In this document: positions 1,802 to 19,938 of the stretch, piece after piece | Layout: each line of letters starts with the position of its first letter | Numbering within the stretch: the stretch's first letter is position 1 | DNA from: Streptomyces sp. SID4985 | Lineage (GTDB): Bacteria; Actinomycetota; Actinomycetes; Streptomycetales; Streptomycetaceae | Direction: 5' to 3' | NCBI RefSeq assembly: GCF_009863025.1 | Contig: NZ_WWIR01000260.1 | Span: 1 to 32,249, forward strand | Length of the DNA stretch: 32,249 bases | Notes under the pieces: model-generated | What the model was told of the DNA's origin: nothing | The model's input: only the letters and a program-made list of their open reading frames with translations | The model's database searches: none | Made by a program: the position numbers and the translations under genes

Positions 1802-2327
1802 CTAACAGGGTTGCTGCTTTCCCAGTGCCGCCGTGTAGCCGGAGATGAGCGCCTTCATGGCGGACTCGTCCCGGCGCCCCGGCTTCAGAGTCCGGACGTA
1901 CGTGCTCATGGACTCGTCCTGCGCACTGGCCTGTACGCAGGGCACGACCGAAACCGCTGCCCCGCCCGTGTAGGCGATCGAGTCACCCCCCAGCAGGCTC
2001 CATAAGGCCGATGCGGCGGTCGTACGACGCGATGTTCCACGCTGAGCGGCTCGCATCGACACGCTCCTGCTCGACCGAGAGCACCGGCTTCCCATCGACA
2101 CTCACCGTGCAGACGTTGCTGGTATCGGCCGTGGACGGAGGGCCCGTTGCGTGAAGGCGCGTTCCGGAAGCGGGCAGCAGTCGACCGAGCGGGGCCGCCG
2201 GAACGGCAACTCCGCACAGCTCGTCAGGTACGGCGAAGCCGCGTGTCGGCCCACCCGACGAACATCCGGCAACGCATCCCACGGCCAGTCCCGCCGACAG
2301 GACGATCTCCACTACGAGACGCCTCAA
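1802..2327 (-). pseudogene. secreted lipoprotein, copy 4, interrupted by a frameshift
   Basis: This is the most diverged member of the lipoprotein array and it reads in two frames. The N-terminal part starts at a TTG (2327) that overlaps the TGA of the upstream WXG gene (TTGA) and has GGAGAG nine bases ahead. It encodes MRRLVVEIVLSAGLAVGCVAGC, LCGVAVPAAPLGRLLPASG and VCTVSVDGKPVLSV, then stops at 1983. The C-terminal part, in the next frame, runs through VVPCVQAS, VRTLKPGRRDESAMKALI and a final QQPC to 1802. Aligned to the other copies, one extra base somewhere in 1986-2010 explains the break. A run of six C (G on the coding strand) at 1986-1991 is the obvious slip site. It could be a true inactivation or a sequencing error. 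Confidence 0.75.
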
Positions 2328-4633
2328 TGCGCGCTGCTCTCCGACTTCCACTGAGCTCCATCCGTATGGCTGAGGCCGGCGGAATTGGCGGCCGCTCTGC
2401 GAAGGTCTTCGGCAGTGTCCGGATTGACGGATTCGTTGTTCACCAAGGCCTTGTCCACGGCCGCCTTCGCGGAGTCCACGGCAGCCATCCTTCCCTCGGA
2501 ATAGCTCGAGCCCGCCTGCGTATCGGCCTCGGTCGCGGTGTCGCGCTCGATACTCTTCATGATGGACTCCTGGATGTCCTCGGAGGCCCATTCGAGGGGA
2601 GCACCGGCGATCGGTACCCGCTCGCCCACCTTCTCGATCCCCATGCCCAGAATGCGGTTCACCCACTTCTGTTTGTCGGCGGCGGCCTCGTTGAATTCCT
2701 TGTCGGAGGCGGAGTGGTACTCGTAGATCGCGTGCGCCCTGGCATCGCTCATGACACCGGCGATCGCAGACCCGGGCGCGACGGCGGCCCCTACACGCCC
2801 GTCCAGCGAGGCGGTTGAATCAGTCGGATCGTTGATGACGTGGTTCACCGCCTCACTTGTGTACGCCTGCTGCGCGCTGGTGATGGCCGAATACGCATCG
2901 GGGTCCTGTCCCACCTCGCCGAGGAACCGGGCGGCGTGATCCGGATTGAGGCCTGCGGCCGCTCCGAACGTCGGGAACAGGCTGCTGTTGGGATCCTCCC
3001 GGTACATGGCCTGCTGGAAGTCCCCCATGTACTCGGCCGTGATGTCCCCCAAACTCCCCCGCATCGCATACAAGGGCCCCGACTCCGCGTCCTCCAGCTC
3101 CCCGTTCTCGTTGTGCCGGATCAGTTCCGGATGTTCGCCGAACTTGTCGACGATCTCGCCCACCAGCTGGGCCCGCGCCTCGGTGTGGCGGATGGCGTCG
3201 GCGGCCGGGTCGCCGTCGTAGGGGCGGCCCGTGGTGGCGGATTCCAGGGCGTGACCGAGGGCGGTGGGGCCGAAGCCGAGGGCGGCCTTGGTCTTGTCCT
3301 CGTCCGCGAGGATGTTGGTCGCGTTGGTGTCGACCGTCCACTCGAAGTCCTTGTCGGTGAACAGGTCGAGGTAGGAGGAGAAACCGGGGTTGCCGCCCGG
3401 CTTGACGGTGCCGTCCTCGTTGTAGGCGGTCGGGGCCGAGGTGAAGAACTTCTCCGAAGCCTCGGGGCTGTGCCCGAGCGCCTCCAGAACGCTGTTGAGG
3501 GGATCGTTGCCGCTGCCGAGCTTGCCGGAGGGGTTGAAGCCGTAGCTGTCGGGGCTCCCGGCCGGCTTGTCGGAGACGAAGAAGTGCGGGTCCTTCTTGT
3601 GGAGTTGGGTGATGTGCTCCGCGATGGGGTTGAGGAACCGCGGGTCGTAGTCGCCGTAGCGGAGCAGCCCGCCGAGGACCTGGTAGCCGTACGGCTTGTT
3701 CCACTGCCCCTGTTCCCAGCCGAGCCGCCGGGTGCCGAGCCGCCGGAAGTCCTGGCCCCAGCTGTCGGGCAGGTGATGCCGGTGGTCGGGGTCGGTCGCG
3801 TTGGCGAGGTTGTAGCCCATCACCCGCTGGAGATCGCGTACTTCGTCCAGCCGTGTCTTGGACGCGTCGGCGCCGGTGCCGTCGATGGACATCGCGGCGT
3901 AGAACTCCAGCGCCTTCTCGGGGCCGCCGAGCCCCTTGTAGAACTCCGTCGAGAACTCCCCGTCCTTCTCACCGGCGTTGAACCGCAACAGCTCGTTGAG
4001 TTCACGCAGCTCCGCGTCGGACATCCTGTCGCCCTTGCGGGCGAGTTCGACCGCGCGCTCGGCCTCCGCGTCGTTCAGGGACTCGTAATTGGTGTGGCCC
4101 GCGTTGTGCCGGTCGCTGCCGTGGATCTTTCCCAGCGCGCGGGAGACCGAGGCGTCGATCTCCTCCGCGTGGGCGACGATCCGGTTGATCTTGCTTTCCA
4201 GTGCCTGCCGGGAGTCGAGCTGCTCCTGCGTCCGCTCGTCGGTGTCCCCGCGCACATGAGGGAAGAAGCAGCGGGCCTTCCCGCCCCCGATGTCCTCGAC
4301 CCGCACCCCGAGTTGCGCGGCCTCGACGTCGACGGCCGTCCTGAGCTGCTTCTGCAGCGACTCCAGCTCACGGTGCCCGTCGTCCAGCACCTGGTGCACG
4401 CTGTGCGCCTCGGCGTGGAGATCCGCGACCTCCTTGGCCGTCTTGGTGACGAACTCCCGCGTCACGGTGGCGTTGACGCCCGCCCACCGGGCGGAGTCGG
4501 ACTTCGACCGCATCCCCGTACGCGCGTTGTCGGCGGCCTTCTTCAGGCCGTCCGCGGCCGACTTCCAGTCGGCCACGGCGGAGGCGAGCCGGCCGAGGTC
4601 CACCTCGGCGAGATCGGTGAAGGTGAGAGCCAC
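2324..4633 (-). CDS. large WXG-motif ESX-associated protein A (DUF6571-like)
   Basis: A 769-aa protein, probably a type VII secretion cargo or accessory factor. The GTG start lies ten bases after the stop of small protein A. The first ~65 residues look like a WXG100 hairpin: a helix with VADWKSAADGLKKAADNA, then a turn with W50-A51-G52 in ARWAGVNATV. A long alpha-rich region (65-200) follows, then a conserved body with LRYGDYDPRFLNP (~325) and LEALGHSPEASEKFF (~385). There is no signal peptide and no convincing TM segment. It is a full-length paralogue of the protein at 10628-12910, with the same motifs at the same positions. I think the family is DUF6571, with moderate certainty. No nuclease, lipase, ADP-ribosyltransferase or other toxin motif stands out. 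Confidence 0.85.
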   Translation of the reverse strand: MALTFTDLAEVDLGRLASAVADWKSAADGLKKAADNARTGMRSKSDSARWAGVNATVTREFVTKTAKEVADLHAEAHSVHQVLDDGHRELESLQKQLRTAVDVEAAQLGVRVEDIGGGKARCFFPHVRGDTDERTQEQLDSRQALESKINRIVAHAEEIDASVSRALGKIHGSDRHNAGHTNYESLNDAEAERAVELARKGDRMSDAELRELNELLRFNAGEKDGEFSTEFYKGLGGPEKALEFYAAMSIDGTGADASKTRLDEVRDLQRVMGYNLANATDPDHRHHLPDSWGQDFRRLGTRRLGWEQGQWNKPYGYQVLGGLLRYGDYDPRFLNPIAEHITQLHKKDPHFFVSDKPAGSPDSYGFNPSGKLGSGNDPLNSVLEALGHSPEASEKFFTSAPTAYNEDGTVKPGGNPGFSSYLDLFTDKDFEWTVDTNATNILADEDKTKAALGFGPTALGHALESATTGRPYDGDPAADAIRHTEARAQLVGEIVDKFGEHPELIRHNENGELEDAESGPLYAMRGSLGDITAEYMGDFQQAMYREDPNSSLFPTFGAAAGLNPDHAARFLGEVGQDPDAYSAITSAQQAYTSEAVNHVINDPTDSTASLDGRVGAAVAPGSAIAGVMSDARAHAIYEYHSASDKEFNEAAADKQKWVNRILGMGIEKVGERVPIAGAPLEWASEDIQESIMKSIERDTATEADTQAGSSYSEGRMAAVDSAKAAVDKALVNNESVNPDTAEDLRRAAANSAGLSHTDGAQWKSESSAH

Positions 4634-4642
4634 GGAAGTCCC

Positions 4643-5128
4643 CTACTTGAAGTACTCGTCGAGCTGGGACACCGGCACGGCGCCCCCGTCACCGCCGCGC
4701 AGCACCGTCCCGATCCTGGCGTCGTCCTCCGCGTGCAGCCTCTTCGTGTAGTCCAGGTGGTCCGAGATGTGCGCACACGCCTGGAGCACCGACTTCACCT
4801 GCGAACTCCACACATCCACAGTCGTGTTGAGCGCGCCGCCGAGCTGAAAACCGTGCGACTTCAGCGAGGCCGCCGCCTGCGCGGTGGAGCCGCTCCCGCT
4901 CTTGTCCGCCCCGGCGCCCGCGATGTCCGCGCAGCCCTTGACCTCGTCGTAGAGGAGATGGGCGTCATGGCCGACGGCACCGAGGTCGTCCTGGTGCACG
5001 ACCAGATCCCCGCCGCCACCGCCGCCCCCGCCGTCCGGCGCGACCTGGTTCAGCCGCGTATGCGCCGTACGGTCCGAAGGCCGCTGCGCTGCCTCAGCCT
5101 TGAGCTGTTCCCACTCGTCCCACGCCAT
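4643..5128 (-). CDS. small helical ESX-associated protein A (partner of WXG protein A)
   Basis: A 161-aa protein that I cannot name. The ATG start follows GGAGG by eight bases. It begins MAWDEWEQLKAEAAQ, has a run of eight glycines around residue 35 (encoded by GGC/GGT/GGG codons, so not a simple slip), then predicted helices. The C-terminal part has QVKSVLQACAHISDHLDYTK, which is the region best conserved with its paralogue at 12916-13362. There is no signal peptide or TM segment. It lies ten bases upstream of the large WXG protein, as in the second module. By analogy with small helical partners encoded next to LXG effectors of other type VII systems, it may chaperone or co-target the large protein. 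That is inference. Confidence 0.82.
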   Translation of the reverse strand: MAWDEWEQLKAEAAQRPSDRTAHTRLNQVAPDGGGGGGGGDLVVHQDDLGAVGHDAHLLYDEVKGCADIAGAGADKSGSGSTAQAAASLKSHGFQLGGALNTTVDVWSSQVKSVLQACAHISDHLDYTKRLHAEDDARIGTVLRGGDGGAVPVSQLDEYFK

Positions 5129-5566
5129 GGAGTGGACCTCCGTTCCCCGGTGACCGCGCCGGTCGTCCGGCGCCCCCGTGTCGGTCTGCCGTCAACGTAG
5201 CAACCGAGGCTCGGTGAAATCTCCGTCCCGAACAGTTCGGCAAGGCGACAGCCCTTTCACGGGGGTGATGTTTTGTGGATGCAAAGTTCCCATTGACCCG
5301 GACCTGGGAGGTCGTACGGCCCGTTCCGTACGTGAAAGTTCTGTGTTCGCGGAGCGGAAATTCCGCCCGTTCGGCCCGAGTTGCCGGATCTGCGGGGCCC
5401 TGGCGACCCCCTGATCCGGGACATGGTTGCAACTTAACCGTCGCAGAGTTCAGTTGGCCGCGATTTACACAGTGACTACAGTGGTCCGTGACGGTACGGG
5501 GGTACGGCTGCGTACGACCCCTTTGTCAAAAGTTGCACAAACGGGGTACGGGGAAGGGGTCGTCCG
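5129..5566. other. divergent intergenic region between module A and the esx operon
   Basis: A 438-base non-coding stretch between divergent genes, and the longest gap in the ESX locus. It holds a good promoter candidate for the plus-strand operon (5454-5482) and a cluster of GTACG words at 5494, 5502, 5512 and 5546 just ahead of the ribosome site of the 5567 gene. No convincing promoter for the minus-strand gene was found. Open frames across it have no coding character. Confidence 0.7.
5454..5482 (+). promoter_or_regulatory. candidate sigma-70-type promoter of the esx operon
   Basis: TTGGCC (5454-5459), a 17-base spacer, then TACAGT (5477-5482). This is a close match to the HrdB-type consensus of streptomycetes. 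The expected start near 5489 would give a leader of about 78 bases before the GTG at 5567. Confidence 0.5.
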
Positions 5567-6031
5567 GTGGCTGGCGGTAGCGGCTCGCATGTCAGGCGCG
5601 GAATCGACGCGCTGTCGAAGTTCAAGACGAAGGTCGACGACGCGCTGCGCACGTTCGAGGACGCCCCGGGCGGGCCGTCCAAGGTCGCGCAGCACAGGCT
5701 CGAGAGAAGCTCGTTCGGCGGCGCGAACGCCCCGTTCCACGAGGCGGTCGACCTGCACGGCCAGTACGAGCGCGTCCACGAGCGGCTCACCTATCTGTCG
5801 AAGTCCCTGGGACTCCAGATCGAGGCGCTGACCCTCGCCACCCGGGCGTCCGACGGGACGTACGACGGGGCCGAGGCCGAGGTGGAGCGACGGTTCTGGG
5901 AGATCAAGTCGCATCTCGACGAGGAGCACAAGAAGGCGACGGAGCCGCACGACAAGAAGCCCGAGTCGCACGACAAGAAGCCGGAGCCTCTTCGAGAGAC
6001 CAGCAAGACGGCCGTGAAGGACTACCAGTGA
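5567..6031 (+). CDS. small helical protein with YxxxE motif, first gene of the esx operon
   Basis: A 154-aa hydrophilic, mostly helical protein of unknown function. The GTG start has GGAAGGGG seven bases ahead. The N-terminal 85 residues read like two helices with a SSFGGANA turn. Y99-D100-G101-A102-E103 fits the YxxxD/E signal carried by one partner of ESX substrate pairs. The tail is charged and holds two copies of HDKKPE (about residues 127-138). The gene overlaps the next one by four bases (GTGA), so the two are translationally coupled. I infer an EspC/PE-like partner for the PPE-like protein that follows. I do not recognise a named family. Confidence 0.8.
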   Translation: MAGGSGSHVRRGIDALSKFKTKVDDALRTFEDAPGGPSKVAQHRLERSSFGGANAPFHEAVDLHGQYERVHERLTYLSKSLGLQIEALTLATRASDGTYDGAEAEVERRFWEIKSHLDEEHKKATEPHDKKPESHDKKPEPLRETSKTAVKDYQ

Positions 6032-7752
6032 GCGACAACTGGCGGCAGAAGCCGCAGTACAAGGCCGACGTCGAGCAGGCGGACGTCCAGGTCGGCGTGG
6101 TCGACGTACTCAACTCCCTGAGCGGCCTGTTCAAGGGCACCCCGCTGGGGGCTCCGCTGCTCCTCGGCCGGACCGACTTCGAGAACCACGACCTCAACGA
6201 GATGATCGACCTGGTCGAGCACGCCAACCCGGAGCATCTGGAGCAGGCGAGCAAGACCCTGTGGGACGCCCGCACGGCCATCCACGACGCCGCCACCGAC
6301 CTGGACACCAACCTCGGCCAGGTCGACTGGGAGGGCGAGGGCGCGGACGCCTTCCACAAGTGGACCAAGGACCTCGTCAACTGGACCAAGGACCTCGCGA
6401 CCTACGCCGACGTCGCCGCGACCCAGATCGACGCGGCGGCCTCCGGCCTGGCCTCCGTCCGCAAGTCCATGCCCCCACGCGACCACCGCCCCGCCGCCGA
6501 CCAGCAGCGCCCCCACGACCTCCCCAAGGCCAAGCAGGTCGACACCAACCCGGACTACACGGCCGCCGTGAGGGTCGAGAAGAACCGGCAGGAGGCGATC
6601 AACCAGATGAACCGGTTGGCGTCCTTCTACTCGGTCTCGGCCATGACACTGAAGGCCGCGCCTGAGCCGGAGCCGCTTCGGGGGATGCCGGATGTGGGGG
6701 TGCCGAAGCCGCCGCAATGGGTGGAGGGAGGGCGGTCTCCAGTAGGTTCCGGAACGGCGACCTCGTCCAGTACGCCCAGGCATGTGGCCGAGGGCCGTCA
6801 CGAAGCGCTGGCCGCATCTCATGGCGCGGAGACGGCCACAAGCGGGCTTGCTCACAAGACGCCGCACGAGTCCACAGCACCGGTCGCTCATGACATCGGC
6901 ACCGAGGTCAACACGGTGGGCACGTTGCCCGCGTCGGCCCCCACGGTGCCTACGACTCACCCCGCGCCCACGCTTCCGACCGCTGGCGGTGGGGGACAGT
7001 TTCCCGCGTCGTTCCCGGGGCCCGGGGCGCCGTCTCCGATCATGCCCGCCACTGGGCGGCCTACCGGAGTCGGAGGCCCGGTCAACCGACTGCCTCTGTC
7101 CGGCCAAGGCCGCACGGGCCCGACGGGTATCGGCAGCGGTCGAGGTACGCAGGGCCCCACCGCACAGACGGGACGGTCCTCGGTCGGCGGCCGCGCGCCA
7201 CAAGGCCCGCTGGGGCAGGCCGCTCGCGCCACCGGGCGTACGGCTCCTGCCGGTCAGTCGCCGCTGCGCGGCGCGACCCAGCCGGGACAGTCGCCGATGG
7301 GGCGTGGGGTCACCGGCGGAACGCCACGTGCCAGTGGGCCGACCGGACGTTCCGGCGCGGTCAACCCTGCCGGTCCGGTGCGCAATGGCGTGGTCGGCGG
7401 CAAGCCCGTCGTAGGCCGTACACCGGGAACTGCGGCCGGTCCCCGTGTGCCGCGCGGAATGGTCGTTGGCACTGGCGAGTCGGCCTCCTCCGCGCAGCCC
7501 AAGGGGCCGCTCGGCGGCCGAGGTGTCATCGGGTCGCCTACGGCGAAGTCCGATCCCGCTGCCGGTCAGGCCGCCCTGCGCTCGGCGAGGAATTCGAACA
7601 GCGTGGTCGGCGCCCCCCGGGCCAAGTCCGACACGCCCAAGGACTCCGGGAAGGGCCTCGGCCGCGGAGCGGTGGGAGCCGACTCCCACGACGGAAAGCA
7701 CGGCTCGTCGCAGAAGAAGAAGCGGCGTGACGCGCCGAAGCAGAGCGACTGA
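6028..7752 (+). CDS. PPE-like WXG protein with Gly/Pro/Thr-rich tail
   Basis: A 574-aa protein. Residues ~60-215 are helical and contain the turn W101-E102-G103 in QVDWEGEGADAF, followed by a long helix with KWTKDLVNWTKDLATYAD. This is the arrangement of WXG/PPE-type ESX substrates. From ~225 to the end the chain is low-complexity, rich in G, P, T, R and S with recurring GPTGR/GRGxxGG-like words, and it ends in a lysine-rich stretch (QKKKRRDAPK). There is no TM segment or signal peptide. The start overlaps the preceding stop by four bases. Its place between a YxxxE protein and mycosin suggests a secreted or surface-exposed substrate. An open frame antisense to it (6022-7818) is a GC artefact. 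Confidence 0.85.
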   Translation: MSDNWRQKPQYKADVEQADVQVGVVDVLNSLSGLFKGTPLGAPLLLGRTDFENHDLNEMIDLVEHANPEHLEQASKTLWDARTAIHDAATDLDTNLGQVDWEGEGADAFHKWTKDLVNWTKDLATYADVAATQIDAAASGLASVRKSMPPRDHRPAADQQRPHDLPKAKQVDTNPDYTAAVRVEKNRQEAINQMNRLASFYSVSAMTLKAAPEPEPLRGMPDVGVPKPPQWVEGGRSPVGSGTATSSSTPRHVAEGRHEALAASHGAETATSGLAHKTPHESTAPVAHDIGTEVNTVGTLPASAPTVPTTHPAPTLPTAGGGGQFPASFPGPGAPSPIMPATGRPTGVGGPVNRLPLSGQGRTGPTGIGSGRGTQGPTAQTGRSSVGGRAPQGPLGQAARATGRTAPAGQSPLRGATQPGQSPMGRGVTGGTPRASGPTGRSGAVNPAGPVRNGVVGGKPVVGRTPGTAAGPRVPRGMVVGTGESASSAQPKGPLGGRGVIGSPTAKSDPAAGQAALRSARNSNSVVGAPRAKSDTPKDSGKGLGRGAVGADSHDGKHGSSQKKKRRDAPKQSD

Positions 7753-7776: not shown

Positions 7777-9054
7777 ATGAAGCCAGAGTTCAGCCGGCGG
7801 CGGGCCGTGACCGCCCACCTGACGAAACTCAATGCGAGACGTGTCTCTGCCGTGTGCTCAGCGCTGGGCATGCTGGTCCTCGGATCAGTGGCCGTGGGGC
7901 CCGAGGCGGCCGCATCGGACATCCAGTCGAAGCAGTGGTACCTGAAGGCGATGGGTGCCGAGGAGATGTGGAAGTACAGCACTGGCAAGGGGGTGAAGGT
8001 GGCCGTCATCGACAGTGGAATCAATCCGAATACGCCTTCGCTCAAGGGCCAGGTGCTGGCCGACGAGGTGCCGAAGTCGGTGGCTTATCACGTCACTCAG
8101 GACTATGCGGGCCACGGCACCGACATGGCCGAGCTGATCGCCGGTACGGGAGCGGGAGGCGAGATCAAGGGGCTCGCGCCGGGAGCCAAGGTCGTTCCTT
8201 ACCGGATCTACGGGGAAGGCTTGAAGGACCCGAAGGAAAAGGAGCGAACTCCCAGTGCGACGGCTGCGATCAAGGCGGCAGCCGACAGCGACGTCAAGAT
8301 CATCAACATGTCGTTCGCGAGCCCTTACTACAGCCTGGACGAGGAAGAGGCCATCAAGTACGCCGCTTCCAAGGGTAAATTGCTGTTCGCGGGTATAGGC
8401 AACACGGGGGACAAGGGAAACAAGGGGCAGTACCCCGCCCAATACCCCTATGCGGTCGGTGTGTCCGCCATCAACGAAGACGGCGAAGTCGGCAAGTTCT
8501 CCACTCATGGTAATTACGTAGACTTCGCGGCACCGGGTGTTGGCATCCCCTCTTGGTGCGACAACACCTTCACCAAGCGCTGCATCGCGTACGGCACGAG
8601 CCCCGCGACGGCGCTTGCCTCCGCCTCCGCCGCCCTCATCTGGTCCGCCCACCCCGACTGGACCGCGAACCAGGTCCTCCGCTCCCTCATCGACACCGCC
8701 GCCCGAACCTGGCCGAAGGACAAGCCCGGCACGTACCTCGGCTACGGAGTGGTCCGCCCTCGTCGGGTGCTGATCAACAAGAACATCGACCCGGGCCCGG
8801 CGAACGTGGACCCCCTCGCGAAGGAGAACGGAACGGCGGACGGTGAGGGTGAGGACGCCAAGGGCACCTCCACCCCCACCCCGTCGCCCAAGCCCTCCGC
8901 GGGAGACAAGGCCGACGGACAGACCTCCGCCGCCGCCAAGACCACCGACTCCGGCGACCACACCCGCACATGGGTGACCATCGGCGCCGCAGCAGCCGTA
9001 CTACTCATCGCAGGAGCCGGTTTCGCCGTGCTGCGCGCACGCCGTAACGCCTAG
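7777..9054 (+). CDS. mycP: mycosin, type VII secretion subtilisin-like protease
   Basis: A 425-aa membrane-anchored serine protease of the S8 family that belongs to the ESX core. It has an N-terminal signal peptide (about residues 1-47, hydrophobic core 26-40) and a catalytic triad D79 (VAVIDSGI), H113 (GHGTDMA) and S275 (AYGTSPATAL), with oxyanion N209 (GIGNTG). A Thr/Pro/Ser linker spans 350-390, one TM helix lies near 399-418, and a short basic tail (RARRNA) follows. This signal-protease-linker-TM order is the mycosin architecture. The protease domain faces outward and in mycobacteria stabilises the membrane complex. The Pro usually found four residues after the catalytic Ser is replaced by Ala here. 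The gene lies 24 bases after the PPE-like gene. Confidence 0.95.
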   Translation: MKPEFSRRRAVTAHLTKLNARRVSAVCSALGMLVLGSVAVGPEAAASDIQSKQWYLKAMGAEEMWKYSTGKGVKVAVIDSGINPNTPSLKGQVLADEVPKSVAYHVTQDYAGHGTDMAELIAGTGAGGEIKGLAPGAKVVPYRIYGEGLKDPKEKERTPSATAAIKAAADSDVKIINMSFASPYYSLDEEEAIKYAASKGKLLFAGIGNTGDKGNKGQYPAQYPYAVGVSAINEDGEVGKFSTHGNYVDFAAPGVGIPSWCDNTFTKRCIAYGTSPATALASASAALIWSAHPDWTANQVLRSLIDTAARTWPKDKPGTYLGYGVVRPRRVLINKNIDPGPANVDPLAKENGTADGEGEDAKGTSTPTPSPKPSAGDKADGQTSAAAKTTDSGDHTRTWVTIGAAAAVLLIAGAGFAVLRARRNA

Positions 9055-9165: not shown

Positions 9166-9504
9166 ATGGCGCAGCGCCAGAAGGTAAGTGACAAGGACCT
9201 CATCGTCCTCGAAAAGGAGCTCACGCACCGTTTCGAGAGCGTCAAGGGCCAGCTCAAGGAACTCCAGGCCCTCATCGACAGCCTCGAGGGCAACTGGAAG
9301 GGCATCGGCGCCGGTGCCTTCAACACCAAGCAGACCGAGATCAACGAGCGCATGGTGCACATCGGCGGCATCCTCGTGAAGTTCATCGAGGCGATGAGCC
9401 AGACCCGGCGCATCAAGGACGGCACCGAGGACGAGGTCCGCGCCCAGGTGCAGGGCATCGACGTGAACCTCGGCGGTTCGCACTCCGCGCTGTCGAACTA
9501 CTGA
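9166..9504 (+). CDS. esxB: WXG100 protein, EsxB-like
   Basis: A 112-aa WXG100 protein, the usual size for this family. Two helices flank the turn W44-K45-G46 in LEGNWKGIGAGAF. The sequence lacks a signal peptide, as expected for an ESX substrate, and no YxxxD/E motif is visible at the C-terminus. EsxA and EsxB are known to form a heterodimer secreted by the type VII system and needed for normal sporulation in S. coelicolor. I assign EsxB by position (first of the pair) and by the YxxxD being on the second protein, so the A/B naming is less certain than the family. It is 40 bases upstream of esxA. Confidence 0.9.
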   Translation: MAQRQKVSDKDLIVLEKELTHRFESVKGQLKELQALIDSLEGNWKGIGAGAFNTKQTEINERMVHIGGILVKFIEAMSQTRRIKDGTEDEVRAQVQGIDVNLGGSHSALSNY

Positions 9505-9544: not shown

Positions 9545-9847
9545 ATGAGCGCCAACAACAGCGGCGAGCTGGAAGTCACTTACCAGAGCCTCGACGAGAC
9601 CGCCACGCAGCTGGCCAACCACGCCAAGCGGCTCGAGGAGAGCCTGGAGGCCATCAAGCAGAAGGTCGCCAGCGTCGCCGGTATGTGGGAGGGCGAGGCC
9701 CACACCGTCTACGCCGAGCGCCAGGCCGACTGGGACAAGCAGGCCAAGGGCATCCACGAGGCCCTGATGGCCATCAGCCGCGTCGTCCACTCGGCCGGCG
9801 GCGACTACCTCGGCGGCGACAAGAAGGCCGCCAGCTACTACATGTAA
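9545..9847 (+). CDS. esxA: WXG100 protein, EsxA-like
   Basis: A 100-aa WXG100 protein. The ATG has GGAG five bases ahead. Helix one (about 14-44) and helix two (about 52-82) flank W48-E49-G50 in AGMWEGEAHTVY. The tail has Y88-L-G-G-D92, a textbook YxxxD export signal, followed by SYYM. It forms the expected heterodimer with the preceding protein and is the last gene of the plus-strand ESX operon, closed by a strong terminator 15 bases downstream. Confidence 0.93.
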   Translation: MSANNSGELEVTYQSLDETATQLANHAKRLEESLEAIKQKVASVAGMWEGEAHTVYAERQADWDKQAKGIHEALMAISRVVHSAGGDYLGGDKKAASYYM

Positions 9848-12910: not shown

Positions 12911-12915
12911 CCCCG

Positions 12916-13362
12916 TCAGCCGCCCTTCCGCTCGTCGAAGCCCTGGTCCAGCTGGGAGATGCTGCTGAGGGTGCCTGCGATGTAGGACTCGTCGGCCGCG
13001 TGCTGGTTCTTGGTGTAACGCAGGTGGTTGGAGATGTGGGCGCAGGCGTCGAGGAGTGTCTGAACCTGGTCGACCCAGTGTCCGGCGACGTGATCGAGGG
13101 CGGCTCCGATGGCGAAACCCTCGCTCGTGAGTCCTCCGGCCGCTTTCAGCGAGGACATGCGCGCGTGGTCGCTGTAGTGCCCGAAGTCCTCGAACAGGTC
13201 GTGGGCCGCCTTGCCGATGGCGGCCAGGTCCGTGTCGTGCACGGTGAGATCACCGCGCGGAATCGATGCACCGGCGTCGGGCGGTACATGGTCGATCCGC
13301 GTGTGCGCCGCCTGGCTCCTCGCGGCATCCGCCTTCAGTTGCTCCCACTCGTCCCACGCCAT
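12916..13362 (-). CDS. small helical ESX-associated protein B (partner of WXG protein B)
   Basis: A 148-aa paralogue of the protein at 4643-5128. The two share MAWDEWEQLKA at the N-terminus, VHxxDL in the middle, and QTLLDACAHISNHLRYTK with a following HAADE segment near the C-terminus. The poly-Gly run of the other copy is absent. It has no signal peptide or TM helix. The gene lies between eccC (73-base gap) and WXG protein B (five-base gap) on the same strand. I infer a cytoplasmic targeting partner or co-secreted heterodimer half of the large protein. No named family recognised. Confidence 0.85.
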   Translation of the reverse strand: MAWDEWEQLKADAARSQAAHTRIDHVPPDAGASIPRGDLTVHDTDLAAIGKAAHDLFEDFGHYSDHARMSSLKAAGGLTSEGFAIGAALDHVAGHWVDQVQTLLDACAHISNHLRYTKNQHAADESYIAGTLSSISQLDQGFDERKGG

Positions 13363-13435: not shown

Positions 13436-16400
13436 CTAGTACTCCACCTCCACCCACCCCGTCTGCACCAACGGCTTCCCCCGCTTCCGCGACACGAAGA
13501 CGCCCCGTCCCGCGGGCATCGGACGCGGCCGGACGCCGCCGAGGATGTCGCCCTCGCCCGGGTCGCCGGACAGGATGAGGCCCTGGGCGCCGAGTTCCTT
13601 CATGCGCTGGAGGACGGGCTCGTAGGAGGCGCGGCTCGCGCCCGCGGAGGAGCGGGCGATGATGAAGCGGACGCCGACGTCGCGGGCGAAGGGGAGCATC
13701 TCGGTGAGGCCCGCGAGGGGGTTGCCGGTGGAGGTGGAGACGAGGTCGTAGTCGTCGATGACGACGAAGACCTGCGGGCCCCGCCACCAGCTGCGCTCGC
13801 GGAGTTGCTGCGCGGTCACGTCGGCGGTCGGGGTACGGCGCTGCATGAGGTCGGCGAGGGCCGTCATGTGGTGGTCCATCTGGCTGGACATGGGGATGTA
13901 CTCGGCCAGGTGGGTCGCCGGGGTGACGTCCAGCAGGGAGCGCCGGTTGTCGACGACGAAGAATTTCGCCTCGTCGCCGCCGTACCGCCGGGTCAGCTGC
14001 TCGATCAGCAGCCGGAGCAGGTTGGACTTGCCGGACTCGCTCTCGCCGAAGACCAGGAAGAACGGGTCCTGCTCGAAGTCGAGGAACACCGGCTCCAGGT
14101 TCTCCTCGTCGAGCGCGAAGGCGATCCCCTGCTTCGGGAAACGGTCGCCCGAGGGCAGCTCGGACGCCTCCAACTGCCGGGGAAGAAGGCGTACTTCGGG
14201 CGCGCCCGGGCCCTGCCAGTGGCGGGAGACCTCGGTGGTCAGCGCGGCCGTGGCGTCCGCCAGGTCGGTGTCGGAGGTCAGGCCGTCGATGCGCGGCACC
14301 GCCGCCATGAAGTGCAGCTTCTGCGGGGACAGACCGCGTCCCGGCACACCCGCGGGCACGTTCGCCGCGACCTTGCGGTCGACCTCGGAGTCCATGACGT
14401 CACCGAGCCGCAGTTCGAGCCGGTTCATCAGGTGGTCCTTGAGGTTCGCCCGGACCTCCATGGAGCGCGACGCCGTGATGACGACGTGGATGCCGTAACC
14501 CAGACCGCGCGCGGCGATGTCCAGGACGGCCTGCTCCAGACCCTCGTAGTCGGTACGGAAGTTGCCCCAGCCGTCGATGACGAGGAAGACGTCGCCCCAG
14601 GGCTGGTCGGCGACCGAGATGTCACCGCGCGCCCGGCGGGCCCGGAACTCGGCGATCGAGGGGATGCCCGCCGAGCGGAAGTACTCCTCGCGGCGGGTGA
14701 GGACGCCGTACACCTCGGAGACCGTGCGCCGCACCCGCTCCGGGTCCAGGCGCGAGGCGATCCCGCCGACGTGAGGGAGCCCGGCCACGGCCGAGAGCCC
14801 GCCACCACCGAAGTCGAGGCCGTAGAACTGCACTTCCTGCGGGGTGTGCGTGAGCGCGAAGGAGCAGATCAGGCTGCGCAGCAGCGTGGACTTGCCGGAC
14901 TGTGGGCCACCGAGGATCTGCATGTGTCCGGCCGCGCCGGAGAAGTCCAGCATGAGCCGGTCGCGCCGCTGCTCGTACGGCTTGTCGACCAGACCGGCGG
15001 GGACGATCAGACGGCCGGCGCCCTCGTAGTCGGGCTGGGTGAGACCGCGTCCCGGCACCGGGGCGAGGCCCGGCAGCAGCGCGTCGAGCGCGGGCGGGCT
15101 CTCCAGCGGCGGCAGCCACACCTGGTGCGCGGCCGGTCCCTGTGCCTCCAGACGGCGCACGATGACGTCGAGCACGGTGTCGGCGAGCGCGTCGTCCACG
15201 TCCTTGACGGACTCGGTGCGCGGCTGGGGCACGGCGGCGTAGTGCACGGGCACCTCGGCCGCCGTGAACAGCACCGGGCGCCGGTCCACCGGCAGCGGAC
15301 CGCCGGACAGCGCGGCCGCGCCCTGCGGCCCCGAGCGGTACACCCCGGAGACGTACGCCGCCTTGAAGCGCACCATCTCGTCCGTGCCGAACTTCAGGAA
15401 GCCGGAACCGGGCACGTTCGGCAGCTCGTAGGCGTCCGGGACGCCGAGGGCCGCGCGGGACTCGGCGGCGGAGAAGGTCCGCAGACCGATCCGGTACGAC
15501 AGATACGTCTCCAGACCGCGCAGCCGGCCCTCCTCCAGGCGCTGCGAGGCCAGCAGCAGATGCACGCCGAGCGAGCGGCCGATGCGGCCGATCTGCACGA
15601 ACATCTCGATGAAGTCCGGCTTGGCGGTGAGGAGTTCGCTGAACTCGTCGATCACCAGGACCAGCGAGGGGATCGGCTGCAGGGGCGCACCGGCGGCGCG
15701 CGCCTTCTCGTAGTCGTGGATGTTGGCGTAGTTGCCCGCGTCGCGCAGCATCTCCTGGCGGCGGTTCAGCTCGCCGCGGATGGAGTCGCCCATGCGGTCG
15801 ACCAGGGTGAGGTCGTCGGCCAGGTTGGTGATGACGGCGGCGACGTGCGGCATCTGCGACATGCCCGCGAAGGTCGCGCCGCCCTTGAAGTCGGCCAGGA
15901 CGAAGTTCAGGGTCTCCGAGGAGTGCGTGACGGCGAGGCCGAGCACCAGCGTGCGCAGCAGCTCCGACTTGCCGGAACCGGTCGCGCCGACGCACAGACC
16001 GTGCGGGCCCATGCCCTCCTGCGCGGCCTCCTTGAGGTCCAGCATGACCGGGCGGCCGTCCTCGCCGAGACCGATCGGCACGCGCAGCCGCTCGGCCAGC
16101 GCGCGCTGCCGCCAGGTCCGCTTGGTGTCGACGGAGGCGGCGTCGCCGAGCCCGAGCAGATCGGTGAACTCCAGGTTGGCGAGCAGCGGTTCGTCGTCGT
16201 CCCCGCCCGAGGCCATCCGCAGCGGCGCGAGCTGGCGGGCCAGCGCCTCGGCGGACTCGGGGGAGAGGGCGTCCGGAGTGCCCTCGTAGACGATCCCGTG
16301 GCCGGACTCCAGGTGCAGCGTGCCGGGCCGTACGACGACGGACAGGTCGCCCGCCATGCCGGTGGGCTCGCCCGGCGCCACCTCGACCAGCGTGACGCCC

Positions 16401-17404
16401 TGCAGGCCGTCGGCCGAGGCGAGCACGGAGTCGGGCAGCAGGGAGAGGTCGTCCAGGACGATCACGATGTGCGGCTCGTCAAGGAGCGGCGCCGCGTCCG
16501 GGTGGAAGCGGGGGCGACCGGTGAGCCGGGTCGCCAGCAGGTCCTCCAGCTCGCGGACGTCCGATCCGATCAGGCGGCGGCTGCCCGCGCCGTCCACCGC
16601 GCCGGGGGCCTGCGCGTGCGGCAGCCACTTCGCCCAGTCCCAGCGCGGCAGCGCCTCGCGCCCGGCGGCCACCGCGACGATCAGGTCCTCGGGGGAGTGC
16701 AGCGAGGCCAGCGAGCCCACCAGGGCGCGGGCGCAGGCCCGTACGGAGTCCGGTTCGCCGCTGAGGACGACGTGCGAGAAGGCGCGCAGCGAGACGGCCA
16801 TCGGCAGGTCGCCGAGCGTGCCGTGCGCCGCGACGAAGCGCTGCATGGCGCCCGCGGTCAGCGGCTCCAGCTGCTCGACCGGACCGGTCTCCGGCGCGAT
16901 CAGCGGAGTCGCCAGTGGCTGCGGGCCGAGCCCGATGCGCACGTGCGCGAAGTCCTCGTCGCCCGCCCGCCGTTCCCACACCCGGCTGCCCTCGGCGACC
17001 AGCGCCCACAGCTGCTCGGGGGAGGGGTGCAGGTAGTACTGCGCGTCCCGCTGCGCCCGCGCGGTGCGTACGGCGTTCTTGCGGGTCTGCGAGAGATAGC
17101 TCAGGTAGTCACGGCGCATGTCGGCCAACTGGCCCTGGGAGCCGCGCCGGAAGCGGACCACCATCGCGACGGACATGGCGACCGTCGAGGCGATCATGAT
17201 CATTCCCATGATCTTCATGAACGGCTGGCCGTTCGTGAAGAAGAAGACCACGGAGCCACCCATGCCGAGCGTGGGCAGCAACTGCATCAGCACGCTCTCC
17301 TGATGCCCGCGCGGCAGCTCCGGCGGCGGCTGGACGGCGATCTCCTCCGTCGGCACTTCGGACGGAAGCGCCCGAGGCGGGCGTTTGACGACAATCTGGC
17401 TCAC
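13436..17404 (-). CDS. eccC: EccC, FtsK/SpoIIIE-type ATPase of the type VII secretion system
   Basis: A 1322-aa motor protein of the ESX membrane complex. Two TM helices lie at about 39-57 and 62-84. A domain with a Walker-B-like IVIVLDD (313-319) but no P-loop follows. Then come three FtsK/SpoIIIE ATPase domains: D1 with P-loop GATGSGKS (473-480) and LVLVIDE (581-587), D2 with GGPQSGKS (832-839) and LVIDG (941-945), and D3 with GESESGKS (1120-1127) and VVIDD (1214-1218). Only D1 keeps the usual Asp-Glu Walker B, in line with D1 being the active ATPase in known EccC proteins. All three domains are fused in one chain rather than split as EccCa/EccCb. D3 is expected to bind the EsxB tail. The start is a GTG. 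It heads the minus-strand operon. Confidence 0.97.
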   Translation of the reverse strand: MSQIVVKRPPRALPSEVPTEEIAVQPPPELPRGHQESVLMQLLPTLGMGGSVVFFFTNGQPFMKIMGMIMIASTVAMSVAMVVRFRRGSQGQLADMRRDYLSYLSQTRKNAVRTARAQRDAQYYLHPSPEQLWALVAEGSRVWERRAGDEDFAHVRIGLGPQPLATPLIAPETGPVEQLEPLTAGAMQRFVAAHGTLGDLPMAVSLRAFSHVVLSGEPDSVRACARALVGSLASLHSPEDLIVAVAAGREALPRWDWAKWLPHAQAPGAVDGAGSRRLIGSDVRELEDLLATRLTGRPRFHPDAAPLLDEPHIVIVLDDLSLLPDSVLASADGLQGVTLVEVAPGEPTGMAGDLSVVVRPGTLHLESGHGIVYEGTPDALSPESAEALARQLAPLRMASGGDDDEPLLANLEFTDLLGLGDAASVDTKRTWRQRALAERLRVPIGLGEDGRPVMLDLKEAAQEGMGPHGLCVGATGSGKSELLRTLVLGLAVTHSSETLNFVLADFKGGATFAGMSQMPHVAAVITNLADDLTLVDRMGDSIRGELNRRQEMLRDAGNYANIHDYEKARAAGAPLQPIPSLVLVIDEFSELLTAKPDFIEMFVQIGRIGRSLGVHLLLASQRLEEGRLRGLETYLSYRIGLRTFSAAESRAALGVPDAYELPNVPGSGFLKFGTDEMVRFKAAYVSGVYRSGPQGAAALSGGPLPVDRRPVLFTAAEVPVHYAAVPQPRTESVKDVDDALADTVLDVIVRRLEAQGPAAHQVWLPPLESPPALDALLPGLAPVPGRGLTQPDYEGAGRLIVPAGLVDKPYEQRRDRLMLDFSGAAGHMQILGGPQSGKSTLLRSLICSFALTHTPQEVQFYGLDFGGGGLSAVAGLPHVGGIASRLDPERVRRTVSEVYGVLTRREEYFRSAGIPSIAEFRARRARGDISVADQPWGDVFLVIDGWGNFRTDYEGLEQAVLDIAARGLGYGIHVVITASRSMEVRANLKDHLMNRLELRLGDVMDSEVDRKVAANVPAGVPGRGLSPQKLHFMAAVPRIDGLTSDTDLADATAALTTEVSRHWQGPGAPEVRLLPRQLEASELPSGDRFPKQGIAFALDEENLEPVFLDFEQDPFFLVFGESESGKSNLLRLLIEQLTRRYGGDEAKFFVVDNRRSLLDVTPATHLAEYIPMSSQMDHHMTALADLMQRRTPTADVTAQQLRERSWWRGPQVFVVIDDYDLVSTSTGNPLAGLTEMLPFARDVGVRFIIARSSAGASRASYEPVLQRMKELGAQGLILSGDPGEGDILGGVRPRPMPAGRGVFVSRKRGKPLVQTGWVEVEY

Positions 17405-17736: not shown

Positions 17737-19245
17737 GTGAGCATGACGGCCGCCGCAACCGGCGGACCCGGGACCGGAACACCGGCCGGGGCCGGTACGG
17801 GACTCGGCTTCTGCCGGGTCACCATCGTCGCCCCGGACAGCCGCATCGACGTGGCACTCCCCGACGACGTGCCCGTCGCCGACCTCTGTCCGGAGATCCT
17901 CCGGCTCGCCCGGCAGAGCCCCGAGACGGGCGCCCCGGTCGGCTACCACCTCGTCCGCACCGACGGCACCGTGCTGGACAGCTCCCGCTCCTTCGCCGCC
18001 CAGCGCATCCTCGACGGCGAACTCCTCACCCTGCGCCCCTTCGCGGAGTCCCTGCCCCCGGCCGTCTTCGACGACGTGGCCGAGGCCGTCGCGGCCGCCG
18101 TCACCAGGCAGCACCGGCTCTGGAGCGGCGACCTCACCCGGACCGCGGGCCTGATCGGCGGCGGCGTCCTGCCCGCCCTGCTCGCCTTCGTGGCCTGGAC
18201 CGCCGACCCGCGCCACGACATGAACGGCCTGGCCGGCATCCTCGCCGCCGTCACCGGCGTCCTGCTGGTCGTCCTGTCCGCCGTCCGCGCCCGCGTCTAC
18301 GACGACCGCGCCTCCTCCGTCGCCCTCGGCCTCGGCGCGCTGCCCGGCATCGGCGTCGCGGGCAGCGGCCTGCTGCCGCTCAGCGGCGGCGAGGGCATCG
18401 GCAGACTCCAGTTCCTGCTGGCGTGCGCCGCCGTGCTCGTCGCCTCGCTCGTCCTCGCGCTCGTCTCCCCGCACCGCGACGGCCCGTTCGTGGCCTTCGT
18501 GTTCGCCTCCGGCGTCGCCCTCGTGGCCGTCTTCGTCGCCACCCTGGCCGACTGGGCCCCGACCGAGACGGCCGCCCTGTGCGCCACCGTCGCCGTCGGC
18601 GCCCTGGCCTTCCTGCCCGGCCTGTCCATGCGCATCGCCCGGCTCCCGATCGGCTTCGAGGCGCCCAACTCCGCGCCCCGCGCCACCGCTTACGGCACCG
18701 AGACCGCGGCCCCCGAGCCCGTGGACACGGAGCGCGTCGAGGCACAGGCCCGGCGCGGCCACGAGATCCTCGTCGGACTGGTCGGCGGCTGTGCCCTCCT
18801 CGCCGTCGGCGCCGGAGCGGTCCTCGGCTTCTCCGACAACGTGTGGGCCCAACTCCTCGCGCTCGCCGCCGGTGTCGCCCTGCTGATGCGCGCCCAGCTC
18901 TTCCGCTACACCGCGCAGGTCGCCTCCGTCCTCGCGGCGGGCCTCGGCACCCTGGTCCTGCTCGGCCTCGGCCTCGCCCTCAACCCGCCCCCGTCGGTGA
19001 TGCGCGCGGCCCTCGCGGGCGACCGCACCGACCTCGACATCCGCACCGTCTGGCTCATCGCCGTCATCGGCGCCGCCGCCGCGCTCTTCACCGGCCTCGG
19101 CCTGGTCCTCGCGCGCGGCGCCCTGACCCCGTTCTGGGGCCGCTTCCTGGAGATCTGCGAGGGCTTCGTCCTGCTGACGCTGATCCCGCTCACCCTCGCC
19201 GTCTTCGACGTCTACGCCACCGTGCGGGCGATGACCAGCAAATAA
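17737..19245 (+). CDS. eccD: EccD, type VII secretion integral membrane subunit
   Basis: A 502-aa ESX core membrane protein. The GTG start has GGGGGAG seven bases ahead; an ATG two codons later is a weaker choice. Residues ~24-105 form the ubiquitin-like (YukD) domain (FCRVTIVAPDSRIDVALPDD, LLTLRPF), which in known complexes sits in the cytosol against EccC. About eleven TM helices follow from ~135 to the end, with a charged cytosolic loop at ~310-345 between the two halves. This is the standard EccD layout. EccD dimers line the membrane part of the ESX pore. It is transcribed divergently from eccC and ends in a strong terminator whose stem begins at the stop codon. Confidence 0.96.
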   Translation: MSMTAAATGGPGTGTPAGAGTGLGFCRVTIVAPDSRIDVALPDDVPVADLCPEILRLARQSPETGAPVGYHLVRTDGTVLDSSRSFAAQRILDGELLTLRPFAESLPPAVFDDVAEAVAAAVTRQHRLWSGDLTRTAGLIGGGVLPALLAFVAWTADPRHDMNGLAGILAAVTGVLLVVLSAVRARVYDDRASSVALGLGALPGIGVAGSGLLPLSGGEGIGRLQFLLACAAVLVASLVLALVSPHRDGPFVAFVFASGVALVAVFVATLADWAPTETAALCATVAVGALAFLPGLSMRIARLPIGFEAPNSAPRATAYGTETAAPEPVDTERVEAQARRGHEILVGLVGGCALLAVGAGAVLGFSDNVWAQLLALAAGVALLMRAQLFRYTAQVASVLAAGLGTLVLLGLGLALNPPPSVMRAALAGDRTDLDIRTVWLIAVIGAAAALFTGLGLVLARGALTPFWGRFLEICEGFVLLTLIPLTLAVFDVYATVRAMTSK

Positions 19246-19645: not shown

Positions 19646-19938
19646 CGCGGCCGTCGTCCTTCCATCCGTACCGGCGAACTGTGAAGTCACCCTACTGGCC
19701 GGGGTTCCGGGCGGTCCTGGATTCAGGGGCGGACCACACGTGCGGAGGCGGTGGACGGCAGAGGGCTTCGGTGGAGGTGACGTGGGGCGTCCGCTACGGC
19801 GCCTCCTCGTGGCGGGACCGCTGGGGCCGAGCACCGTTTCGCCCTGGCGGTCCCGCCCAGGCGCGATGCGGCACCCCACCCGGCCCGGAAGAGCCCCCTG
19901 CGGAGCAGCCCCGCCCCGACGCCCTGGAAAGGACCCCG
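19646..19938. other. divergent intergenic region, DUF397 / beta-propeller genes
   Basis: A 293-base non-coding region. On the minus strand TAGGGT (19695-19690) is a plausible -10 for the DUF397 gene, but no matching -35 is clear. I see no convincing promoter for the plus-strand gene. Confidence 0.5.

Follow-up and report, generated by a model that had tools for sequence, protein, structure and literature searches.

Can the two overlapping genes that lie upstream of a mycosin gene in a Streptomyces genome encode a type VII substrate pair of the kind known from mycobacteria, and if so, how closely do they resemble PE and PPE proteins? Streptomyces is a soil bacterium without a mycomembrane, unlike the hosts of PE/PPE proteins. 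The stretch of DNA analysed here (the window; 32,249 nucleotides, Streptomyces sp. SID4985) contains the following features:

5567..6031, plus strand: 154-aa predicted signal-bearing partner, a PE/EspC/EsxB-like helical protein (ORF, GTG start)
5861..5875, plus strand: YxxxE motif, Y99-E103, of the 154-aa protein (conservation; coupling to partner position 105)
6028..6031, plus strand: GTGA start/stop overlap (sequence)
6028..7752, plus strand: 574-aa WxG partner with a PPE-like N-domain and a long low-complexity tail (ORF, GTG start)
6172..6687, plus strand: PPE-like helical domain, residues 49-220 (span aligned to PPE41 1-174)
6328..6342, plus strand: W101-E-G103-E-G105 of the 574-aa protein (WxG turn; G105 coupled to Y99)
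6715..7749, plus strand: 345-aa Gly/Ala/Pro/Ser/Thr/Arg-rich tail (composition; five V[VI]G repeats at residues 455-528)
7777..9054, plus strand: mycosin-type S8 protease, the next gene (Peptidase_S8, E=4.6e-43)
9166..9504, plus strand: WXG100 protein, EsxB-like by position (WXG100, E=6.7e-7)
9545..9847, plus strand: WXG100 protein, EsxA-like (WXG100, E=1.5e-16)
13436..17404, minus strand: EccC ATPase belonging to this type VII locus (FtsK_SpoIIIE, E=3.8e-83)
17737..19245, plus strand: EccD (PF19053, E=2.9e-85; YukD, 4.1e-23; TIGR03920 above cut-off)

Both reading frames of the pair are real genes, as originally predicted: their third-position G+C is 0.92 (154-aa) and 0.84 (574-aa), whereas the antisense ORFs reach 0.65 and 0.70, and purine-rich, Shine-Dalgarno-like stretches, judged by eye, precede both starts (5552-5559, and AAGGA at 6017-6021). 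The GTGA overlap is likewise present, and translational coupling may be presumed from it, but most relatives do not have the same overlap. For 102 pairs, that of the window included, starts were assigned by choosing the start codon that came closest to giving a 4-base overlap: the genes then overlap by 1 base in 17 pairs and by 4 bases in 10, no call was possible for 11, and the remainder show other overlaps or gaps. The proposed position at the head of an esx operon holds insofar as the mycosin gene and two WXG100 genes come next in the same orientation, but eccC is encoded on the opposite strand. The mycosin matches T7SS_mycosin with E=1e-71, yet its 241.9 bits are below the cut-off of 278.75. 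The pair has WxG and YxxxD/E on adjacent partners within a T7SSa locus, which is the broad description of a T7SSa heterodimeric substrate.

The homologues collected from Streptomyces and its family comprise 264 adjacent pairs, 252 of them distinct. Genes of the 154-type and the 574-type are adjacent in all 102 pairs of the first set, in 79 of 80 named Streptomyces loci (the sole miss is 167 bases from a contig end) and in 83 of 86 loci of a further set, where two misses are at contig ends and one is real at the threshold used. Adjacency and gene order, not the overlap itself, are what is conserved. The YxxxE motif (Y99-E103) and the W101-E-G103 (codons at 6328-6336) are present where the original prediction placed them, and both are near-invariant among the 252 distinct pairs: the full [Y/F]xxx[D/E] motif occurs in 249 of them, and W together with G in 247. 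In the 154-type protein, position 99 is Phe in 130, Tyr in 120 and Leu in 2 pairs, and position 103 is Glu in 138, Asp in 113 and Asn in 1; in the 574-type protein, position 101 is Trp in 250, Ile in 1 and a gap in 1, and position 103 is Gly in 248 and Ser in 4. Given this near-invariance, the two motifs are not a matter of chance. The pair is also confined to the EccC-bearing genomes of the sample: none of the 11 genomes that we read as lacking EccC has it, whereas the 574-type domain is found in 154 of the remaining 189, that is, those read as EccC-bearing (a match is absent from 35 of the 189 searched).

Many genomes of the Streptomyces family carry a second copy of the pair. No homologous second pair was found in the SID4985 genome, where two stretches with weak WXG100 matches (C184 and C608) gave no profile match at E 0.001. 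A plasmid tblastn search with the 574-aa protein returned one Streptomyces record.

The fold of the larger protein provides the closest link to PPE. In the AF2 model of residues 1-241 (pLDDT 86), W101xG103 sits between helices 68-96 and 104-147, i.e., at the turn between the second and third helix that typifies the PPE fold, in agreement with the PPE-length helical domain originally proposed. In the VIA fold comparison of this N-domain, the top six rows consist of four PPE41 entries, PPE15 and PPE4, with Z of 11.9-12.7; residues 49-220 align to PPE41 1-174 over 165 residues (Z 12.7, rmsd 3.9). The next, unrelated row has Z 10.9, a margin of 1.0-1.8, which among helical bundles counts as moderate evidence. 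At the sequence level, the match to Pfam PPE (PF00823; E=1.3e-4, 22.5 bits) is under the gathering cut-off of 26, and the protein starts MSDNWRQKPQYKAD, with no Pro-Pro-Glu near the N-terminus. It is not a WXG100 (PF06013) member either, given its 19.5 bits vs 27.3 and the length of that family, about 100 residues. Across 72 domains of the 574-type, 14 match PPE and 31 match EspA_EspE (PF18879; best 3e-5), both at E up to 0.1, and 58 match WXG100. The profile reaches ORFs at esxA positions, and a PDB sequence search with the family finds EsxA entries (best E 0.002). The top row of that search (E 1.8e-5) is sc-apCC-4, which looks like a designed coiled coil.

The AF2 model of the smaller protein (pLDDT 80) contains a helical hairpin (5-32 / 58-95) with two short helices inside the hairpin loop and a further helix at 102-125, so that the two helices originally described are roughly right. 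Y99-E103 follows the modelled hairpin, which is the PE arrangement of helix-turn-helix and then YxxxD/E, and the profile of the family matches the C-terminal helices of EsxB with Y-x3-E aligned to the signal-bearing segment. No Pro-Glu is present near the N-terminus, as the protein starts MAGGSGSHVRRGID, and scans of Pfam (E up to 1) and NCBIfam yielded no family for it. For 75 members of this type, 7 match EspC (PF10824) at E up to 0.1 (best 1e-4) and 11 match DUF2563; PE (PF00934) is missing among the 25 families listed of 49. Fold comparison of the model retrieved generic two-helix bundles alone, with no PE structure listed, and the PDB sequence search with the family gave nothing usable. 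Accordingly, membership of the pair in the PE or PPE family is rejected on the name-giving motifs and the Pfam cut-offs.

The two motifs appear to co-evolve. The strongest coupling between the proteins links position 99 (Y/F) of the 154-type with position 105 of the 574-type, two residues past the WxG (Z 10.4, compared with at most 8.2 in 30 shuffles); its raw value is 2.79, against at most 1.71 for intra-protein pairs at least 6 apart. In an earlier run on 181 pairs, the highest raw value from 40 shuffles (1.76) was above the real 1.73. On the first tree (222 pairs), 8 of 11 Y/F switches fall on a branch on which position 105 changes as well, against 1.9 expected (0 of 5000 draws), and on three other trees 7 of 10, 7 of 11 and 7 of 12 switches do so (2, 2 and 13 of 20000 draws); an earlier tree test with 181 pairs and 6 switches was weak, and that with 222 pairs is stronger. 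Phe-99 occurs with Gly-105 in 1 and Tyr-99 with Ser-105 in 3 of 222 pairs. The choice of position 105 came from the couplings listed for the very data that were later tested on the tree; when 15,540 column pairs were scanned blind, 99-105 came 4th, 11th and 10th. With A for the 154-type and B for the 574-type protein, the couplings A103-B111, A88-B99, A26-B124, A17-B111 and A62-B205 were not upheld on the tree, and A103-B112 has p=0.01. A helix-diagonal packing test (181 pairs, 300 permutations) gave no significance for Aa1xBa3, Aa2xBa2 and Aa2xBa3 (real value equalled or exceeded in 105, 44 and 195 of 300) and 11 of 300 for Aa1xBa2, in an unexpected orientation; among the controls, Aa1xBa4 gave 171 of 300 and Aa2xBa4 0 of 300, the most significant band. 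This test being mostly negative, no helix-by-helix geometry is claimed. The co-evolution of the motifs supports a putative heterodimer whose composite signal lies at one end.

The long Gly/Pro/Thr/Arg-rich tail of the original prediction is indeed a low-complexity, repeat-bearing stretch of 345 aa, which is also rich in Ala and Ser (G 19, A 12.5, P 12, S 9.6, T 9.6 and R 7.5 %) and carries repeated RGxVVG-type segments. The tails of 181 homologues are uniformly low-complexity, 295-370 aa long (10th-90th percentile), with G, P, A, T, S and R making up 71 %; a hydrophobic 19-mer is found in 2 of the 181. A second YxxxD/E-type motif, C-terminal in the tail (YLxEDEETW; 21-23 residues from its end), is present in 117 of 264 proteins, namely in 117 of 254 tails of at least 250 aa and in 115 of 242 distinct tails.

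Taken together, the genes, the conserved pairing and motifs, the PPE-like fold of the larger protein, the EsxB-like signal segment of the smaller one, the co-evolution of the motifs and the EccC-limited occurrence in the sample support the PE/PPE-like reading, from which we infer complex formation, export and cleavage. We consider it likely that the two genes are the halves of one T7SSa substrate, an EspB-like protein split in two, that is exported via EccC as a composite-signal complex. The 154-aa protein would be a helical hairpin bearing the YxxxE signal and the N-domain of the 574-aa protein a PPE-like fold in which WxG sits at the turn between two helices; the two would pair in a helical bundle, with YxxxE against WxG forming the composite export signal, and the complex would leave the cell via the EccC machine of the same locus. 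With a YxxxE domain followed by a WxG domain, a disordered tail and the mycosin gene, the order of parts is the EspB one, which makes it probable that the mycosin cuts back the tail while the complex is being exported or afterwards.

The constancy of the mycosin, found 1.5-3 kb downstream of the pair in 96 of 102 cases and following it in 77 of 79 in a further set of relatives, as well as the fairly constant tail size, could also indicate a fixed accessory of the secretion machine, a cell-bound helical dimer gating the mycosin or coupling it to the membrane complex. We regard this as unlikely, because YxxxD/E and WxG mark exported T7SS substrates, as described in a review (PMC7028111), the YxxxE segment aligns with EsxB, the second copies in many family genomes are odd for a fixed machine part, and hydrophobic 19-mers are nearly absent from the tails. 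It is still less probable that the pair is a polymorphic toxin (or effector) plus a chaperone for its export, in the LXG-Lap style, in which a small helical partner with [Y/F]xxxD/E would likewise adjoin a larger protein with WxG; the same genome does carry another YxxxD / WXG-like pair elsewhere. The uniformity of the 181 tails, unlike a variable toxin end, led us to reject this reading, and the next gene is usually a mycosin.

Least probable of all, to the point that we dismiss it, is that ordinary helical proteins happen to be neighbours, with coincidental motifs and a coupling that reflects shared ancestry. Helical charged proteins do match many profiles weakly, the packing test is mostly negative, and because Y/F at position 99 follows lineage, part of the 99-105 coupling is ancestry; however, the near-invariance of both motifs and the tree-corrected co-change of 99 and 105 argue against this explanation.

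The split-substrate reading is best placed by comparison with known pairs. As in PE25-PPE41, PE8-PPE15 and PE5-PPE4 of mycobacteria, the small partner has YxxxD/E and the large one WxG and a long C-terminal extension, and the domain of the large one has a PPE-like fold (the 165 aligned residues come from a 173-residue PPE41 chain). Unlike PE/PPE, the Streptomyces pair lacks Pro-Glu and Pro-Pro-Glu, its small partner gave no match to PE, its PPE score is sub-cut-off, and EspG (PF14011) has no match in the genome at E up to 10. EsxA/EsxB also have WxG in one partner and a YxxxD/E C-terminal helix in the other, but the Streptomyces pair is much longer and a separate WXG100 gene pair is present in the same locus. 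To the EspA/EspC and EspE/EspF pairs the link is a weak match (PF18879, PF10824). In those pairs, the gene of the large partner comes first. EspB of ESX-1 has a YxxxD domain, a WxG domain, a disordered C-terminal part and a mycosin association, and is cleaved by MycP1 (PMC10140165); it is, however, one chain with a linker, whereas here there are two genes with a GTGA overlap, and its fold match to the 574-aa domain (Z 9.3) is no better than the surrounding BAR-domain rows. LXG toxins with Lap proteins (T7SSb) likewise combine a larger exported protein with small helical partners (PMC11217815), but here no LXG or toxin domain was matched and the locus is T7SSa, with mycosin and EccD.

According to a 2019 review (PMC7028111), searches of monoderm bacteria such as S. 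aureus have yielded no PE or PPE orthologues; pe/ppe genes are described in some other mycolic-acid producers (PMC4791881). For S. lividans, three secreted type VII proteins, termed ESAT-6-like, have been counted (PMC5853079). In the literature surveyed, which was available in part and does not extend to the ESX papers in Microbiology (2010) and Mol Plant Pathol (2013), we came across no description of a Streptomyces pair of this kind. If our interpretation is correct, the combination of a PPE-like fold and a YxxxE partner with EccC in mycomembrane-free Streptomyces speaks against a role restricted to crossing an outer membrane, and the pair is a candidate for non-Esx substrates of the Streptomyces system. 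Because of the Y99/105 coupling, the composite-signal model can be put to the test with two point mutations, in a host that is harmless and tractable. More speculatively, and with the balance tilted against it, PE/PPE-type pairs might be an old, general part of type VII secretion and not a mycomembrane speciality; a split EspB-like pair with its own mycosin would then routinely accompany the core locus in the Streptomyces family and in at least one further family of actinomycetes, cleavage by the mycosin would free the tail for a role in the wall or matrix in hyphal development, and Tyr/Phe against Gly/Ala/Ser may be a general rule of WxG/YxxxD contact.

The two genes lie on the plus strand in the same locus as genes for core components of a type VII secretion system:

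5567-6031, plus strand, ORF for the 154-aa protein
6028-7752, plus strand, ORF for the 574-aa protein
7777-9054, plus strand, mycosin-type S8 protease gene, downstream of the pair
9166-9504, plus strand, first WXG100 gene downstream of the pair
9545-9847, plus strand, second WXG100 gene downstream of the pair
13436-17404, minus strand, EccC
17737-19245, plus strand, EccD
19681-21399, plus strand, PQQ/BamB-like protein, after eccD (PF13360, E 6.8e-11)

The codon-position G+C of both pair genes is that of real genes (the window is 70 % G+C), and the genome contains one match for each protein. Given that a gap (5129-5566) sets the pair apart from a divergent ORF, its original placement at the head of an operon is fair for the pair-mycosin-WXG100-WXG100 series. 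Neither EccB nor EccE was identified among the scanned ORFs, which are part of those of the window, itself one whole contig. The window also contains two similar minus-strand modules (2324-5128 and 10628-13362), each encoding a small protein starting with MAWDEWEQLK (161 and 148 aa), then a 760-769-aa protein (the second one matching DUF6571 at E 5e-10), and containing lipoprotein-like genes; a minority of the 102 relatives have ORFs of this kind close to the pair, and the modules could represent further secreted partners. On another contig of the same genome (C184, locus L199) there is a different T7SS-like pair, at 5439-5921 and 3847-5427, both minus strand, without profile relation to the pair described here: the 160-aa protein contains YDGSD and has weak EspC/WXG100 matches, the 526-aa protein has a weak WXG100 match, and the pair adjoins a 982-aa ORF resembling a regulator.

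In the Streptomyces family, the 574-type N-domain is present in 154 of 200 genomes and the 154-type protein in 136, and the 154-type profile detects its target in 283 of 394 genomes at E 1e-8. When 100 stretches were fetched around 154-type matches, giving with the window 102 strong matches, each of the 102 had a 574-type gene in the same orientation no more than 1500 bases downstream. The pair was likewise found in 79 of 80 loci retrieved via the 574-type domain (all Streptomyces among the matches listed; the exception lies 167 bases from a contig end), and in 83 of 86 loci of a third set, where two of the misses are at contig ends and the third (L401) is genuine at the threshold applied. Locus selection is biased toward a detectable 154-type protein, and the three sets overlap, comprising 264 pairs in total, 252 of them distinct. 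The GTGA overlap by which the two plus-strand genes were predicted to be coupled is present in the window but is not conserved: judged by the nearest start codon, the overlap is 1 base in 17 of the 102 pairs and 4 bases in 10, with 11 unjudged.

The assignment of YxxxE to the small partner and WxG to the large one is borne out by the relatives, all four positions being retained in 244 of the 252 distinct pairs. Position 99 is F in 130, Y in 120 and L in 2, and position 103 is E in 138, D in 113 and N in 1, so that the YxxxE of the window is a case of [Y/F]xxx[D/E]; in the partner, W101 is W in 250 (one I, one gap) and G103 is G in 248 and S in 4.

The AlphaFold2 model of residues 1-241 of the 574-aa protein (custom alignment, mean pLDDT 86) has helices at 56-64, 68-96, 104-147 and 175-210, besides a low-confidence one at 14-36, with W101xG103 between the second and the third. 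The VIA comparison is headed by six PPE rows, four for PPE41 and one each for PPE15 and PPE4 (Z 11.9-12.7 over 158-165 aligned residues), followed by an unrelated BAR domain (Z 10.9), with EspB entries (Z 9.1-9.3) among BAR domains. PPE chains are also first in plain Foldseek (E 0.003-0.05, none below 0.001). Z alone is weak for helical bundles; nevertheless, the predicted match to the PPE fold is credible because all six top rows are PPE proteins and the protein matches Pfam PPE, at E 1.3e-4, below the cut-off. The 154-aa protein is modelled as a hairpin with a further helix (pLDDT 80), for which the structure search yielded only generic matches. More informative is its family profile, which matches EsxB-like proteins along their C-terminal helix: in locus L207, Y-x3-E falls on Y-x3-E, at a domain E of 8.7e-10 when nine sequences were searched and 1.5e-7 with a larger set. 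The 574-type profile, for its part, reached ORFs at esxA positions. Taken together with the PPE-fold match, these relations indicate that both halves belong to the Esx/PE/PPE/Esp superfamily.

Contact between the two proteins was approached by inter-protein co-evolution analysis. With 181 pairs, 15 inter-protein couplings exceeded Z 5, compared with 2.95 on average and at most 6 over 40 shuffles, whereas the raw maximum of the shuffles (1.76) was above the real one (1.73); the 8x8 block 97-104 x 100-107, which contains both motifs, was among the four tied highest of 12,220 blocks. In a larger run (222 non-redundant pairs, effective number 130, 111 x 144 columns), the top inter-protein coupling was 99-105 (Z 10.4), followed by 99-106 (Z 7.0), position 105 being two residues past the Gly of WxG. 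The maximum Z in 30 shuffles was 8.2 (mean 5.9), and the raw 99-105 value (2.79) exceeds any intra-protein coupling at a separation of 6 or more (1.71). Nine pairs had Z>5 versus a shuffled mean of 2.7 (maximum 7), and 32 had Z>4 versus 17.5 (maximum 25). The states are complementary, with Tyr accompanied by Gly (56) or Ala (49) and Phe by Ser (57) or Ala (52), while the 222 pairs include a single Phe-Gly and three Tyr-Ser combinations.

Since Y/F also varies between lineages, the changes were mapped on trees built without the coupled columns. Eight of 11 Y/F switches share a branch with a change at 105, against 1.9 expected (0 of 5000 random draws), and on three other trees 7 of 10, 7 of 11 and 7 of 12 do (2, 2 and 13 of 20000 draws). 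This test is only partly directed: proximity of the motifs, which lie together in PE/PPE structures, was stated beforehand, but the choice of position 105 came out of the coupling results for these very data. When 15,540 column pairs were ranked blind, 99-105 took 4th, 11th and 10th place. Among six other high couplings, only 103-112 reached p near 0.01 on the tree, and a helix-diagonal packing test was mostly negative; hence our claim from covariation is limited to a probable contact between YxxxE and WxG and does not extend to the full geometry.

The original description of a long Gly/Pro/Thr/Arg-rich tail also holds: residues 230-574 are low-complexity. Among 181 relatives, the tails measure 295-370 aa (10th-90th percentile) and contain G 22, P 13, A 10, T 9, S 9 and R 8 %; just two of them have a hydrophobic 19-mer. 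On average, a tail has 2.4 copies of V[VIM]G (0.5 after shuffling), with an interquartile spacing of 21-26 residues; an example is residues 455-528 of the 574-aa protein. Of the 254 tails with 250 aa or more, 117 (115 of 242 distinct ones) carry a YLxEDEETW-type motif, which usually holds a second Y-x3-[D/E] and is often accompanied by a PV[IV][DE] end. In 116 of these 117, it lies 21-23 residues from the C-terminus (e.g., loci L103, L072 and L107). The tail of the 574-aa protein has no such motif and terminates in a basic stretch.

In 96 of 102 pairs, a mycosin-like ORF of the same orientation lies 1.5-3 kb downstream of the 154-type domain start, and 98 have such an ORF somewhere in the stretch; in the set of 80 loci, a mycosin follows 77 of the 79 pairs (one of the two exceptions is a contig end) and esxA lies downstream in 78 of 79. 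Several loci (L072, L075, L083 and similar) have, in addition to the downstream one, a second same-strand mycosin-like gene about 1.3-2 kb upstream. Eleven of 200 genomes were read as being without an EccC orthologue (best E 2e-18 to 1e-112; 1.8e-191 or better in the others), one of which (G138) is only 71 % complete. None of the 11 has a 574-type or 154-type match; the hypergeometric chance of such an absence for the 574-type, calculated by hand and uncorrected for kinship, is about 3e-8. Among the 189 EccC-bearing genomes, 35 lack a 574-type match, and three of these (G033, G056, G083) have a shorter, divergent pair by profiles. These divergent pairs (at L208, L207 and L204, respectively) consist of 113-126-aa and 484-525-aa open frames located between mycosin-like genes, 3' of esxB-esxA.

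Outside the Streptomyces family, two loci of family f94 of the same class (L201, L202) have, between eccC upstream and a mycosin downstream, a 574-like gene (E about 1e-25) immediately preceded by a 154-like open frame with Y-x3-D (E 1e-6, 2e-4); at a third (L203), a 574-like gene is placed in the same way and no 154-like partner was detected. Family f6 contributes one locus, L206, in which an open frame with YRTAE and a weak 154-like match (E 5e-5) immediately precedes a 574-like frame with WTG; no mycosin was found within this stretch. Across 296 genomes of the phylum, a profile search at E 1e-4 gave 7 genomes with the 154-type protein, all from the genus of the window. At E 1e-5, 345 genomes of the class yielded 50 with a match to the 574-type profile, but short matches among them may be plain WXG100 proteins.

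No account of such a pair in this genus was encountered in the literature searched, which did not include the two principal papers on Streptomyces ESX. Look-alikes in S. avermitilis are regarded as repeat artefacts in PMC1660551, and a later survey (PMC4791881) reports pe/ppe genes in further mycolic-acid producers and gives S. coelicolor a table entry that can be read as plain ESX-4. Unlike PE/PPE proteins, the pair has no PE or PPE motif and scores below the Pfam cut-offs, and no EspG match was found in the genome; the order of its parts is that of EspB cut at its linker, with two genes here instead of one. It therefore belongs to neither PE/PPE nor EspB, although it appears to work like both.

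By analogy with the behaviour of PE/PPE, Esx and Esp substrates (PMC7028111, PMC11217815, PMC10140165), the simplest account is that the 154-aa and 574-aa proteins would form a heterodimer exported by EccC via a composite WxG/YxxxE signal. MycP1 trims EspB within its disordered C-terminal part (PMC10140165); given this and the equivalent order of parts, our best guess, a tentative one, is that the adjacent mycosin might trim the 574-aa tail. Phenotypes published for the type VII system of Streptomyces, as cited in PMC8401907, concern sporulation and development.
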